DNA from: Hyphomicrobiales bacterium | GTDB taxonomy: Bacteria > Pseudomonadota > Alphaproteobacteria > Rhizobiales > Beijerinckiaceae | Direction of reading: 5' to 3' | Assembly (NCBI GenBank): GCA_027488155.1 | Contig: JAIYCE010000059.1 | Location: forward strand, 22,692 to 86,691 | DNA: 64,000 nucleotides | Shown here: positions 53,025-63,923 of the stretch, piece after piece | Numbering within the stretch: the stretch's first letter is position 1 | Layout of the letters: the number at the start of each line of letters is the position of its first letter | Program-made: the position numbers and the translations under genes | The notes under the pieces: generated by a model | What the model was told of the DNA's origin: nothing | What the model saw: only the letters and a program-made list of their open reading frames with translations | The model's database searches: none

Positions 53025-55754
53025 CTACGAGACCTCTTCGGGGAGCGTGCATTTGGCCGCATTCACCTCGAACACATAGGCACGCAATGCGTCGATTGTG
53101 AGAGCGCGGGCGAAAAAGTAACCTTGAACGTAATGACACCGTAGACGTTTAAGCGCATCGAATTGCGCTTTCGTCTCGACGCCTTCTGCCAAGGTTGTCA
53201 TACCGAGAGAATCGGCAATAGTGATGATAGCGTTTACGATTCCATCGGAATCGGTGTCACCCGGCAGACCGGCGACAAAAGAGCTATCGATTTTCAGACG
53301 TGTAACCGGTAGACGCTGCAAGCGGCTTAGCGATGAGTAGCCAACGCCAAAATCATCGATTGCTATTTCGACGCCGCGATCGCGCAATTCTTTCAGTGTT
53401 TCGATGGCTTGGGGTTGATCGCCTGCGAGAACAGTTTCGGTGACTTCGATCTCAAGTCTGTCGAGCGGAAAATCATTGAGCGCTGCAATACGTTCGATTC
53501 GCTCAACGATGTTGTTTTCAGCGCAATCATTCGCCGAGAAATTGACAGCGAGGCGTAATTGGTCGCCGTTCTCGCGAATGATGTGCGCCGTATCGCTCAT
53601 CGTCCGCATGAGCATGGTCTCCGTCAATCGCGGCATGAGACCGCTATCTTCGGCGACACTTGTGGCTTCATAAGCCGGCACCGCGCCAAGCTCGTCGTCA
53701 GTCCAGCGCAATAAGGCCTCAAACCCAAAGACAAATCCCGTTTGGACATCGATCTGCGGTTGATAATGAAACGCGAGGGTGTTTTCATCGAGCGCTTGAC
53801 GTAAACGCGCTTCGACCCGGTAGCGACGATCGTTGATATTGCGAATATGCGTGGAGAATAACTCGGCACGCCCCTTACCCGCGCCTTTTGCATAGTTCAA
53901 CGCAAGATCGGCATGGCGCATCAAATCATCGACATTACCCGCATCGTCGGGGAAGAGGCTGATTCCGATCGTCATGCCGACCGTGACAGTCTCGCCTGAT
54001 TCAATTGTAATCGGCATGCTGACGATATCGATCAACGCATTTGCAAGTGTAATTGCCGCATCGGGATCAGCGACTGTATCAAGAAGCACCATGAATTCAT
54101 CGCCACCGCGCCGTGAAACAATGTCCGATGCACGCAAACGTGTCTTTAAGCGATCGGCAACGACTCGGATGATCTCATCCCCCGCCGAATGGCTGAAGAC
54201 ATCGTTGACGATCTTGAAACGATCAAGATCAAGAAAAAGGAGAGCCAGCTTTTCGCCGGAGCGCGAAGCACGGCTCATAGAGCGGGCGGCGGTTTGCTCG
54301 AAGAAGTTTCGATTGTAAAGCCCCGTTAACCCATCATGATGGGCCACATAAGCAAGAGCCTTCTGCGCATTCTTCTGTGCTGTGATATCGGAAAGAACGC
54401 AGACATATTCCGTTGTGAGGTCATCATCCTGCGTTGCAACCGGGCTCAGGGTCATCTGAAGGTTCAATGCCTCCGTCTGGGATTGAAATAGCAATTCCCG
54501 TTTGACAACCTCACCACGCCGGGCCGCCTTCAAGGCGTTGGCGATAGCGCCCTCTGCGTCGGCAAATGGCAATGTCCAAATGGCCCGGCCGATGAGATCG
54601 CCAGGTGTGAGATTTACCAACCTTTCAAAAGCTGCGTTGGATTCAATGATACGCCCATGCCGATTAAGCACCACGATTCCCTCGCCGGACGAGCGGAACA
54701 CGGCAGCGGTTTGTTCGAGATTATGCATCAAGCGGCGTTGCTGCATGAACGCGCTGTTCAGCGTATCGGCGAGAATCTTTAATTCGCTTGACCATCCACG
54801 CGGCGTCAGCGTGGCGGGTTCACCTGCAGCAAAACGCGTAGAGGCCTCTGTTAGCAGAGCAAGCTGCCATGTGATGCGGTCTGCAAAACGACGGGCCATG
54901 AGCGCACTCAACGCCGAAAGCAGCAATGCGGCTGCTAACCCCATCAGCGTAAACTGGCGCGCAATATCGGCAAGCGGATCACCGATAAAATAGAGACTGA
55001 TTGTGAGGTTGAGCGAAGCATCTTCATAGGCGATGCGAATCTGGCGCTGGACTGCGAGACGCCCAAGGATTGAATCGTTGGGCTCGAGCTGTTCGCCACT
55101 CGGCTCGATCGTTATGGCGAAATCGCGACCGCCAAAGCGTTGAACGGGGGCCATAATGGCACCAAAATCATAGGTCTGAGCGAGCACGCCCATAGACCCT
55201 TCAAGATAGGGGTATGAAACGGAGGCTGCGATGGCAAGGCGGCGTTGCGCACCGGTTTGACCTGGCTGCGGCGGCAGCATCGTAACAATGGGCTTGGCAT
55301 CCCGTAGCGCCTGCGCAGCCATGATGCTTACGGCGGCTGGGCCAGCCCGCATATTCTGTTCCGTCGAAAGGACAGGGCGAGCGCGATAATCGAACAGGTA
55401 GGATTGGCCACCCAAAGCATAAGCGGCTTCCGATTGCAGGCTCCTCAAAAAGGGGAGAAGCACCGCGCCGCGATCTTTCGTGTCCATGAGCGCCGTCGAA
55501 ACAATCGGCGAACGCGCCAAGCGCACAGCATCGCGGATCAGACCCTCAATGACGAGAGACAGGCGCTCTTCAACGAGGCGGCTCGTAAACTGCGCTTCGC
55601 CGACAAGGCGTTCGCGCGCAAAGCTGATGGCGGCCACAACCGAGACAAGCGTGAGCAGGACCACAATTGCCGTCGTACTGAGGCTCGCCAGAAGCGCGAT
55701 GCGCCCGCGCAAAGTAGGCGGCAAAGGCAGGATGGTTCGAAAACGATCTGGCAA
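53025..55754 (-). CDS. Membrane-bound PAS-GGDEF-EAL cyclic-di-GMP protein with periplasmic sensor region
   Basis: N-terminal TM plus extracytoplasmic region, second TM/HAMP-like region, PAS, GGDEF (RRGGDEFMVLLD) and EAL (FGFEALLRW, IDDFGVGYSSL) motifs. Confidence 0.96.
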   Translation of the reverse strand: MPDRFRTILPLPPTLRGRIALLASLSTTAIVVLLTLVSVVAAISFARERLVGEAQFTSRLVEERLSLVIEGLIRDAVRLARSPIVSTALMDTKDRGAVLLPFLRSLQSEAAYALGGQSYLFDYRARPVLSTEQNMRAGPAAVSIMAAQALRDAKPIVTMLPPQPGQTGAQRRLAIAASVSYPYLEGSMGVLAQTYDFGAIMAPVQRFGGRDFAITIEPSGEQLEPNDSILGRLAVQRQIRIAYEDASLNLTISLYFIGDPLADIARQFTLMGLAAALLLSALSALMARRFADRITWQLALLTEASTRFAAGEPATLTPRGWSSELKILADTLNSAFMQQRRLMHNLEQTAAVFRSSGEGIVVLNRHGRIIESNAAFERLVNLTPGDLIGRAIWTLPFADAEGAIANALKAARRGEVVKRELLFQSQTEALNLQMTLSPVATQDDDLTTEYVCVLSDITAQKNAQKALAYVAHHDGLTGLYNRNFFEQTAARSMSRASRSGEKLALLFLDLDRFKIVNDVFSHSAGDEIIRVVADRLKTRLRASDIVSRRGGDEFMVLLDTVADPDAAITLANALIDIVSMPITIESGETVTVGMTIGISLFPDDAGNVDDLMRHADLALNYAKGAGKGRAELFSTHIRNINDRRYRVEARLRQALDENTLAFHYQPQIDVQTGFVFGFEALLRWTDDELGAVPAYEATSVAEDSGLMPRLTETMLMRTMSDTAHIIRENGDQLRLAVNFSANDCAENNIVERIERIAALNDFPLDRLEIEVTETVLAGDQPQAIETLKELRDRGVEIAIDDFGVGYSSLSRLQRLPVTRLKIDSSFVAGLPGDTDSDGIVNAIITIADSLGMTTLAEGVETKAQFDALKRLRCHYVQGYFFARALTIDALRAYVFEVNAAKCTLPEEVS

Positions 55755-55952: not shown

Positions 55953-55970
55953 TGTCAATTAAATTGGACA
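55953..55970 (+). promoter_or_regulatory. PpsR/CrtJ-type operator, TGTcN10gACA
   Basis: TGTCAATTAAATTGGACA = TGT-C-AATTAAATTG-G-ACA, 14 bp upstream of the GTG of the bchE-like remnant. Confidence 0.6.
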
Positions 55971-55984
55971 GTCGAAGAGGCAAT

Positions 55985-56376
55985 GTGCGCAGTCTGTTCG
56001 TCTGCCCAAACTTTCATTCTAGTGGTGCCCAGATTGCCGGATCATGGCCACCCGCATGGGGCACTTATCTTTCAGACCATCTCCGACAGGCAGGTTTCGG
56101 CCAAATTCATTTCATCGACACGATGAGGCAGAATGTCTGCGATGAGGACGTTTTGAAGATTGCGTCCGAAATGGCTCCCCGTGCGGTATCGTTTTGAGCG
56201 GCGCAAAAACGAACCTTCTCGACAAGCAAGCGCTGAGCGAAGCGCCGTGTGTCGGCGTGATTGTGCGCGGCAAGGGCGAGCAAGCCTGCACCGCATCGAT
56301 GAGCGCGATCTGCAACGGACGTTGGCCGCATATCTTTTATCGCGTGCCATCGCATAACATGTTTGGACCTTCATAG
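55985..56376 (+). pseudogene. bchE: Degraded 5' fragment of bchE (anaerobic Mg-protoporphyrin IX monomethyl ester cyclase), frame-broken
   Basis: Frame 1 from GTG 55985: VRSLFVCPNFHSSGAQIAGSWPPAWGTYLSDHLRQAGFGQIHFIDTM...EMAPRAVSF*; frame shifts near 56191 to VLSGAKTNLLDKQALSEAPCVGVIVRGKGEQ...ICNGRWP. Both match the BchE B12-binding N-terminus (NYHSGGAEIAGNWPPAW; LGGxHATFMYxQVLxEAPWIDxIVRGEGE) as recalled. Confidence 0.65.
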
Positions 56377-56724
56377 GCTCAGGACAATTTTGTATCAGCA
56401 CGCCGTGGCAATGCGAGCTCGCGCATAATGCACCGATCCACAGAGAACGCGCCTAGAGCTGTCTATGCGCTTGGCATGCGGCTCCATGCGAGTGGCACTG
56501 TCGCGTGCCGGTATCGCGCCACGCGTATTGCGAGGAAACGGAATGCTGCACACATAAAGATGTGTGGTTCGCCACTTTCGTACTGACGCGTTAGTCAGGG
56601 TAGCAAAATTGAACCCATTTTGAGTTTCCTCCGCTCCCCGGTTGGGTACGGTGCGATTGATTAAACCTGTCCTGTCTGAAAAGACGTTTCTTTCAGAATT
56701 CAGTTCGGTCGGGATCAAAGCACA

Positions 56725-58047
56725 ATGAAATCGAAGATACTCAAGGCTATGCTGGGTTGCGCCACTGCAGCGTTTCTCTGCGCCGGCACGATGGCACAGG
56801 CCGATATGTATCTGCCGCCCTTCTATGCGGCCGCGACGCAAATAAAGCCGCAAGGAAAACTCGGCCAAATTGTCAGGAAGGAAAAGATCCCGACAGCGAT
56901 TGCCAATGCGCAGGCCTGGCGCATTGCCTATGTCTCGTCCGACATGACGGGGAAGAAAACGATCGTCACCGGTATCGTCATCGCACCCAAGGGACCGGCA
57001 CCGAAAGCCGGGCGCCCCATCATGTCATGGGCGCATGGCACGACAGGAACCGCGCAGAATTGTGGCCCCTCGCAAGTTGGCAATGCCACTGCGCCGCTCA
57101 ACGAATATTTCCTGATGAGCGGAAATGCATGGACCGATTATGGTGTTCCCGCGATCAATGAATTCATCAAGGCAGGTTACGTCGTCGTCGCGACCGATTA
57201 TCAAGGTCTCGGTGGCGGCGGACAACATCAATATCAACTTGCCGTGACGCAGGCGCATGACACGATCGATGCGATCCGCGCAGCAGGCAGCCTCAAAGCC
57301 ACGGGCGCAGGCAAGACCGCCATTCTCTATGGCTGGTCGCAGGGTGGCAGTGCAGTGACAGCGGCGGCGAGCGCGCCCGATTATATCAATCAAAAGGGAA
57401 CGGCTTTCGACGGCATCACGATTGCCGGCGTTGTGGCGATGGCACCGCCCGATTTTAAAACGCTGACGCCACCCGGCGGACTGACCGATGCCAATGCACC
57501 GATCATGATGACCAATATTGCAAAATCCTTTTCGGCGAGCCTGCCCAACTTCACGCATTTCACGATGACCTTGTGGGGGGCGCAGGCGGCGTTTCCCGAC
57601 AAGTTGAAACTGAGCGATGCGTTGACGGACGAGGGCGTCAAAGCGGTTGAAACCATCATGCGTAACAAATGCGTCCATGGTTCAGCCGATGCGTTCAACT
57701 ATGCGTATGGCGATCAGTTCGCCACATTGATCAAGCCGAACATCGACAATGCCAAGGCATGGGGGCAGGCGCTGATCGACAGCGCCGGAACGAACGTGAA
57801 ACCGGTCGCGCCCGTCATCATCTATTGGGGCACGAAGGACATCGTCGCCCCGCCGATCATGCACAAGATCTACCGGGAAGAGATGTGCAAAATGGGCGGC
57901 AATGTCGCGCGCGTTCAACTCGCGGGCGAAAAGACGCATTTCGCAACGCCGGGCGCGTCGCAGCCGCTCTATCTACCTTGGATCGCCGACCGTCTAGCGG
58001 GCAAGCCCGCACCCGATGGCTGCGTGGCAGAACAGGTTCAGAAATGA
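56725..58047 (+). CDS. Secreted lipase/alpha-beta hydrolase (secretory lipase family-like)
   Basis: Signal peptide MKSKILKAMLGCATAAFLCAGTMAQA; nucleophile elbow ILYGWSQGGSAV; MSWAHGTTGTAQNCGPS. Confidence 0.82.
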   Translation: MKSKILKAMLGCATAAFLCAGTMAQADMYLPPFYAAATQIKPQGKLGQIVRKEKIPTAIANAQAWRIAYVSSDMTGKKTIVTGIVIAPKGPAPKAGRPIMSWAHGTTGTAQNCGPSQVGNATAPLNEYFLMSGNAWTDYGVPAINEFIKAGYVVVATDYQGLGGGGQHQYQLAVTQAHDTIDAIRAAGSLKATGAGKTAILYGWSQGGSAVTAAASAPDYINQKGTAFDGITIAGVVAMAPPDFKTLTPPGGLTDANAPIMMTNIAKSFSASLPNFTHFTMTLWGAQAAFPDKLKLSDALTDEGVKAVETIMRNKCVHGSADAFNYAYGDQFATLIKPNIDNAKAWGQALIDSAGTNVKPVAPVIIYWGTKDIVAPPIMHKIYREEMCKMGGNVARVQLAGEKTHFATPGASQPLYLPWIADRLAGKPAPDGCVAEQVQK

Positions 58048-61404: not shown

Positions 61405-62304
61405 CTACGCGGCCATTTCGATGTTCTCAAGGGCTGCATAGTAGTTTGCTTCGGCCTCGGCAGGCGGGATGTTGCCGATCGGCTCCAGCAGGCGCTGGTG
61501 ATTGAACCAATCGACCTATTCGAAGGTCTTGTACTCGACGGCCTCAAAGGACTTCCACGGCCCGAGCCGGTGAATAACCTCAGTTTTGAACAGCCCGATC
61601 ACGCTCTCGGCGAGGGCGTTATCGTAACTGTCGCCGACGCTGCCGACGGACGGATCGATGCCGGCTTCCGCCAGCCGCTCGGTGTAGTGGATGCTGACGT
61701 ATTGCGATCTTCAATCGCTGTGGTGGATGAGGTTCTCGGTAGGCCTGCCGGCATGCAGGCCCTGCTCTAGGGCATCGAGGACGAACACCGCCGTCGGGTT
61801 GCGGCTGACCCGCCAGCCGACGATCCGTCTGGCGAAGACGTCGATCACGAAGGCTACGTAGACCATGCCGGCCAAGGCGCTCACGTAAGTGAAGTCGGAG
61901 ACCCACAGCATGTTCGGCGCCAGAGCGTGGAACTGCCGGTTGACCAGATCGAACGGGCAAGCGGCTGCCTTGTCGAGCGTGGTCGTACTGACCACCTTGC
62001 CGCGCACCACGCCTTCCAGCCCGAGCCGCGCCATCAGCCGAGCGACGCGATCACGCCCGAGCTTGAAGCCTTTGCGGTTGAATTGCAGCCAGACCTTCTT
62101 TGCGCCATAGACGCCGAAATTCTTGGCGTGGCCCCGGACAATCTCCTTCGACAGCCGCTCGTCTTCCTTCGCCCGCGTGGAGCGAAGGTCGGGATCGGCC
62201 TTGCGGCGAACGTGCGCGTGCCAGGTGGAGGGGTCGATCCGCAGAACCCTGCACATCGGCTCGACCCCGTAGCTATCCACATGGGCCTCCATAAAGGCCG
62301 TCAT
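61405..62304 (-). pseudogene. IS3-family orfB transposase (DDE) with two in-frame stops
   Basis: ORF reads to ...ENLIHHSD*RSQYVSIHYTERLAEAGIDPSVGSVGDSYDNALAESVIGLFKTEVIHRLGPWKSFEAVEYKTFE*VDWFNHQRLLEPIGNIPPAEAEANYYAALENIEMAA*; stops where R and W are expected. Confidence 0.9.
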
Positions 62305-62681: not shown

Positions 62682-62755
62682 AGGTACATCATCACCGCCA
62701 GACGGATGATCTCTGGACTGGTCTTGAAGTAGCGGAAGATGCGCGGATTGCTCAT
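62682..62755 (-). pseudogene. N-terminal remnant of an IS6-like transposase, cut by the IS3 element
   Basis: Minus strand from ATG 62755: [24 protein letters not shown] then directly into the IS3 right IR. Confidence 0.75.
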
Positions 62756-62897
62756 GCCCGGGAGGCTATCGGCTCACGCTTCGCGCACAAGCCGATTTTC
62801 CTCTTACAGCGCCGTTGCGAGCGTCATCTGTCTGTCGCTAAAGGTCCCTAAATTTTTGACGCCTATTACGCTGTCGGGCATCCAGGGGGACAAGATA

Positions 62898-63923
62898 ATG
62901 TTGAAGCCGATCCTTGCCGCGGCGATCGTGGCACTTGCTCAGTTCATGCCTTGGGCCGCCGAGGCCCAGCAGCGCCAGTTGACTGTTTACTCATCGCTTG
63001 ATGAGGATCAGGCAAAAGCCCTGATCAAAGGTTTTGAAGCCAAAAATCCGCAGATCAAGGTCAATGCCATCATCGGCTCGACTGCGCCGATCATCGCGCG
63101 CGTCATCGCGGAAGCGGCCTCGCCGCAGGCCGATATCATTATGGGAAATGCGGTTTCGGCTCTGATGGCCGCCGATGCCCGCGGCCTCCTTCTGCCTTAC
63201 AAGCCAGCCAGTTTTGACAAGATTTCTCCCGTGATGCGCGACAGCCGGGCTGAGCCGGTCTGGGTGGGCATCGATGCCTGGGCGTCGTCGATCTGCTTCA
63301 ATACCGTCGAGGCGGCAAAGAAGAACATTCCGGTGCCGAAGACCTGGGCCGACCTCGCCAATCCTGTCTACAAGGGCCACATCACGATGCCTTCTCCACT
63401 TTCCTCTGGGACAGCGCTACTTGCCGTCAACGGCTGGCTGACGATTTTCGGTGAGGCAGGAGGCTGGGACTTTATGGACAAGCTACACGAGAATGTCTCG
63501 AAATATGGACATTCCGGTTCGGCCCCGTGCCGGCAGGCCGGCTCCGGCGAGACGATCATCGGCATTTCCTACGCGACGCCGGGTGTCAAAGCGATCAATG
63601 AGGGAGCCCCGATCCAGATTATCCTGCCGTCTGAAGGCTTGGGTTGGGAAATTGAGGCCGCGGCCATCGTCAAGGGTGCCCGCAATCTGGCCGATGCGAA
63701 GGCGATGGCAGACTGGATTTCCTCACGCGAAGCTGCCGAGATCTCGGCCAAGTTTCTCCCTATCACGGCCTATGATGACATCCAGGTCCTGCCGAAGAAC
63801 TATCCGGCTGATGAGAAGGCGAAGCTTCTAAAGATGGATTTTGCTAAGCTTGCCAGCAGCCGCGATGCCGTCATGGCCGAGTGGCAGAAGCGTTACGGCG
63901 TCAAGGTTCCACCCAAGAACTGA
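62898..63923 (+). CDS. ABC transporter substrate-binding protein (putative 2-aminoethylphosphonate / Fe3+-type)
   Basis: Signal peptide, QRQLTVYSSLDEDQAKALIKGFEAKNPQIKVN..., NPVYKGHITMPSPLSSGTALLAVNGW; C-terminal VLPKNYPADEKAKLLKMDFAKLASSRDAVMAEWQKRYG typical of the putative 2-AEP binding proteins I recall; start at MLKPILAA. Confidence 0.8.
   Translation: MLKPILAAAIVALAQFMPWAAEAQQRQLTVYSSLDEDQAKALIKGFEAKNPQIKVNAIIGSTAPIIARVIAEAASPQADIIMGNAVSALMAADARGLLLPYKPASFDKISPVMRDSRAEPVWVGIDAWASSICFNTVEAAKKNIPVPKTWADLANPVYKGHITMPSPLSSGTALLAVNGWLTIFGEAGGWDFMDKLHENVSKYGHSGSAPCRQAGSGETIIGISYATPGVKAINEGAPIQIILPSEGLGWEIEAAAIVKGARNLADAKAMADWISSREAAEISAKFLPITAYDDIQVLPKNYPADEKAKLLKMDFAKLASSRDAVMAEWQKRYGVKVPPKN

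Follow-up and report, generated by a model that had tools for sequence, protein, structure and literature searches.

A putative PpsR/CrtJ operator stands before a decayed bchE-bchJ operon in a bacterium that is still an anoxygenic phototroph

A palindrome of the kind bound by the photosynthesis repressor PpsR/CrtJ lies directly in front of what appeared to be a remnant of bchE in the stretch of DNA analyzed here (64 kb, referred to as the window). This raises the question whether the palindrome is a PpsR operator and, if so, whether it is a regulatory fossil or a live site, two options between which a sequence-only reading of the locus had not chosen. The sequence TGTCAATTAAATTGGACA was found to match TGTC-N10-GACA exactly at positions 55953-55970 of the forward strand and is separated by fourteen bases from the GTG at 55985, as that reading had claimed. 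It conforms to the TGTN12ACA pattern that defines PpsR/CrtJ operators (PMC5362033), also in the stricter TGTC-N10-GACA form, and is an imperfect palindrome with 12 of its 18 positions symmetric. When the window was scanned with a PpsR-site matrix trained solely on bchE promoters from other genera, TGTCAATTAAATTGGACA obtained the top score (19.9 bits). Three exact matches to TGTC-N10-GACA were present in the window compared to 0.59 expected from shuffles, and the remaining two (16807 in coaBC and 63494 in an ORF of the periplasmic-binding type) are within coding sequence. The latter match (63494-63511, inside ORF 62739-63923) was also the second best in the matrix scan with 15.6 bits, and is probably due to chance.

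The frame starting at 55985 matches a BchE N terminus (TIGR02026, E=5e-16 over 70 residues), and the congeneric genomes G001 and G002 each carry an intact, syntenic bchE that is divergent from the same PAS-GGDEF-EAL gene (Table 1). The identification as a bchE remnant is therefore well founded. About 100 recognizable codons are left of the 541-codon gene, which has a frameshift and an altered start codon and lacks ~81 nt internally. Through a further deletion of ~1.5 kb, bchE has been joined directly to the second half of bchJ. The order in G001 is bchE, bchJ (TIGR02019), and then lipase-like and ygiQ genes, and lipase-like and ygiQ genes also flank the bchE-bchJ remnant in the window. The sequence-only reading had missed that bchJ is a remnant as well, and that the genome is still photosynthetic.

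Table 1. Positions in the window of the putative operator, the bchE-bchJ remnants and the flanking genes.
Feature	Positions	Strand	Remarks
PpsR/CrtJ-type operator TGTCAATTAAATTGGACA (putative)	55953..55970	+	14 bp before decayed bchE start; position kept in G001 and G002
PAS-GGDEF-EAL gene, intact, divergent	53025..55754	-	Pfam; purifying selection; shares the 230-bp intergenic region; same neighbour in G001 and G002
bchE remnant, 5' part	55985..56188	+	ATG changed to GTG; ~codons 52-78 deleted; TGA at 56195-56197; TIGR02026 and alignment to G001/G002 bchE
bchE remnant, second part, other frame, ~codons 97-142 of 541	56191..56328	+	Remainder of bchE deleted
bchJ remnant, ~codons 102-193 of 195, two in-frame stops	56310..56585	+	tblastn with G001 BchJ; blastn
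Secretory-lipase-like gene, intact, right flank of lost operon	56725..58047	+	

The changes unique to this genome, polarized against the congeners, were distributed over codon positions 1, 2, and 3 of the bchE remnant as 12/11/15. The corresponding numbers were 2/1/12 and 1/0/14 for the bchE genes of the congeners and 42/25/146 for the PAS-GGDEF-EAL gene of this genome, which is under purifying selection. The bchE remnant evolves neutrally, and the comparison of 12/11/15 with 42/25/146 indicates that bchE, and not the whole locus, is free of constraint. No other bchE match was found in the rest of the draft genome, which is 80% complete. With BchE homology carrying disabling lesions, no intact copy in this 80% complete genome and relaxed constraint, the gene is classified as a pseudogene. 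A literature search found no report of a bchE pseudogene in aerobic phototrophs. A possible second bchE fossil, an N-terminal BchE-like match in G032, was rejected since it looks like an unrelated B12-binding-like fragment. An ORF for an IS3-type transposase (by eye, from its translation) is located at 61711-62304 on the reverse strand, ~5 kb from the collapsed operon.

The two congeners both have a palindrome in the equivalent position before the intact bchE, TGTCACTTTTATTGGACA located 15 bp before the ATG in G001 and TGTCAGTTTGATTGGACA located 17 bp before the ATG in G002. Of the 34 intact bchE genes examined in related genomes of the order, 27 (from 17 of 23 genera) were preceded by TGTN12ACA at a distance of at most ~110 bp, the genus count being the fairer of the two because the 34 genes are related. 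The perfect form was present upstream of 19 of these genes, while control patterns (reversed, shifted-gap, and inverted) were found 0 or 1 times upstream of the same set. The association agrees with what is known from Rhodobacter. ChIP-seq in R. sphaeroides detected PpsR at bchEJ, where the motif is TGTCAACTGAAATGGACA; this bound site is near-identical to TGTCAATTAAATTGGACA (PMC4344238). R. capsulatus has CrtJ peaks upstream of bchE, and its CrtJ operon bchEJGP has tandem sites that lie at a distance (PMC5362033; PMC6199135). The putative operator resembles those of Rhodobacter bchEJ(GP) with respect to palindrome family, target operon, and position upstream of bchE; however, Rhodobacter has an intact operon whose sites act in pairs, whereas here the operon is dead and a single site was seen. 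A matrix scan of the ~290 bp surrounding TGTCAATTAAATTGGACA gave no second, cooperative PpsR site above background. A second cooperative site (PMC6199135) is not strictly defining for a PpsR/CrtJ operator, and the R. sphaeroides promoter table, in the part consulted, lists a single motif for most promoters (PMC4344238). A promoter scan recognized no promoter at the locus.

The regulator itself is encoded in the genome. The ppsR gene is full-length (TIGR02040, 383 bits vs. a cut-off of 275), and its product is 89% identical to PpsR of G001 with a helix-turn-helix (HTH) nearly identical to that of the congeners. The genome also contains pufL, pufM, acsF, bchF, bchN, bchB, and bchG, and the organism is an anoxygenic phototroph. 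These genes, together with ppsR, rule out that the operator is a leftover in a non-phototroph; since the genome is still photosynthetic, what was lost is the alternative for one enzyme step. Genome-wide pattern searches found exact TGTC-N10-GACA sequences 38 times compared to 20 for the reversed control pattern. Strong PpsR-like sites were located before bchF/aerR, bchG, bchO, and bchC and between crtA and crtE, and those of bchO and crtA/crtE are perfect in all three species (the AerR-like gene was named from its position and sequence and has no NCBIfam match; bchC was named from sequence). Taken with the congener sites, the order-wide association with bchE and the R. sphaeroides bchEJ site, the presence of ppsR and of the motif near photosynthesis-type genes supports the proposal that TGTCAATTAAATTGGACA is a PpsR/CrtJ operator.

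Some exact matches occur elsewhere in the genome. The conserved matches in coaBC and at the start of a ctaB-like gene (named from sequence) were not counted as operators because they are coding. The latter is a perfect TGTC-N10-GACA overlapping the start codon in all three species (G000:C6:11253-11270, G001:C1:394810, and G002:C37:760). It may be a coincidence because it encodes the N terminus MSLVTDI, and the start of this haem pathway gene would be an unusual location for a PpsR operator. Two species keep a perfect, AT-rich match (G000:C75:10166-10183 and G001:C1:1127656-1127673) that lies between a maf-like gene and a small phasin-like ORF (by eye) and may represent a PpsR target separate from the photosynthesis cluster. 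The sequence TGTCACTATTATAAGACA at G000:C41:41436-41453, close to an Irr/Fur-like regulator ORF and to a fabA-like gene (by eye), had no conserved counterpart in G001 or G002.

The sequence-only reading described the operator as retained. This holds for its sequence and position, both of which are intact, but retention is no evidence of function. Approximately 15% of the remnant sites changed on this lineage (0.149 per site), and at this rate the probability that the eight specified core bases are retained neutrally is about 0.28. The wholeness of TGTCAATTAAATTGGACA is therefore no evidence of use, and selection on the operator was ruled out as a conclusion from its retention.

Selection is nevertheless part of the competing explanation that survives best, which we consider improbable. 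According to this, PpsR at TGTCAATTAAATTGGACA controls the divergent PAS-GGDEF-EAL gene, and the operator was taken over, outlived its operon and is still under selection. The EAL gene is undamaged, is under constraint and starts ~200 bp from the site, the intergenic region is common to all three species, and the operator core bases are unchanged. However, the operator adjoins the start of bchE (15-17 bp in the congeners) and not that of the EAL gene, its retention without selection is expected by chance with the probability given above, and the bchE operator of G020 has a different upstream neighbour gene. If the explanation were true, the photosynthesis repressor PpsR would couple light or oxygen to cyclic-di-GMP turnover in the genus. 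It is less probable still, and in our view highly unlikely, that the bchE lesions are errors of assembly or binning and that, in the living cell, bchE is intact and its operator functional. The genome is indeed a draft of 107 contigs and incomplete, but several independent lesions are spread over two adjacent genes, bchE and bchJ, the substitutions in the remnant are distributed evenly among the codon positions, both flanks consist of intact, syntenic genes, contamination amounts to 0.22%, and the bchE match is the only one in the genome. That TGTCAATTAAATTGGACA resembles a short degenerate palindrome by chance is almost inconceivable, and its position before bchE, shared by three species, together with the association across genera, has already refuted this idea. 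Isolated matches are not unusual, as the genome-wide frequency of the reversed control illustrates, but dinucleotide shuffles of the 230-bp intergenic region gave a perfect match anywhere in only 23 of 20000 cases.

We conclude with considerable confidence that TGTCAATTAAATTGGACA is the ancestral PpsR operator of bchE-bchJ, that the operon decayed while AcsF was kept, and that the site is probably still bound but controls no working bchEJ. In the congeners, PpsR at the operator would repress bchEJ under oxidizing conditions. In the genome analyzed here, bchE-bchJ was lost through small deletions, the frameshift and the ~1.5 kb deletion, while AcsF, the oxygen-dependent cyclase, was kept along with the remaining photosynthesis genes, and AcsF may have relieved the operon of selection. 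Since bchEJ has decayed and AcsF was kept, the fifth ring of bacteriochlorophyll is expected to be made only with oxygen. PpsR probably still binds TGTCAATTAAATTGGACA, because both site and protein are intact, and such binding would no longer control a working bchEJ, leaving an orphan operator. As to the choice between fossil and live site, the operator is thus best read as a relic of bchEJ, which PpsR, judging from its sequence, can probably still bind and which controls no functional bchEJ.

In most aerobic anoxygenic phototrophs bchEJ is missing from the photosynthesis gene cluster or from the genome, and AcsF is used (PMC12654162), 'Ca. Phycosocius' being an example of bchEJ absence with reliance on AcsF (PMC10008586). 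The present genome resembles them in having lost bchE and bchJ and kept acsF. In those organisms the genes are usually simply absent, whereas here remnants and operator are visible beside the intact copies of the congeners. A strong PpsR motif that seemingly controls nothing also has a parallel in R. sphaeroides RSP_2095 and RSP_3000, which are PpsR-bound sites without an effect on expression (PMC4344238). Binding was measured at these two sites, whereas at TGTCAATTAAATTGGACA binding is deduced but the lost target can be seen.

Both PpsR control of bchEJ and loss of bchEJ in aerobic phototrophs are already established, and the present case joins the two. Two congeners keep bchE, and all that is left of it in this genome are remnants behind an intact operator. 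The loss of oxygen-independent bacteriochlorophyll synthesis has here been caught part-way within one genus, and the locus offers a small test case for the persistence of regulator binding sites after their target genes die.
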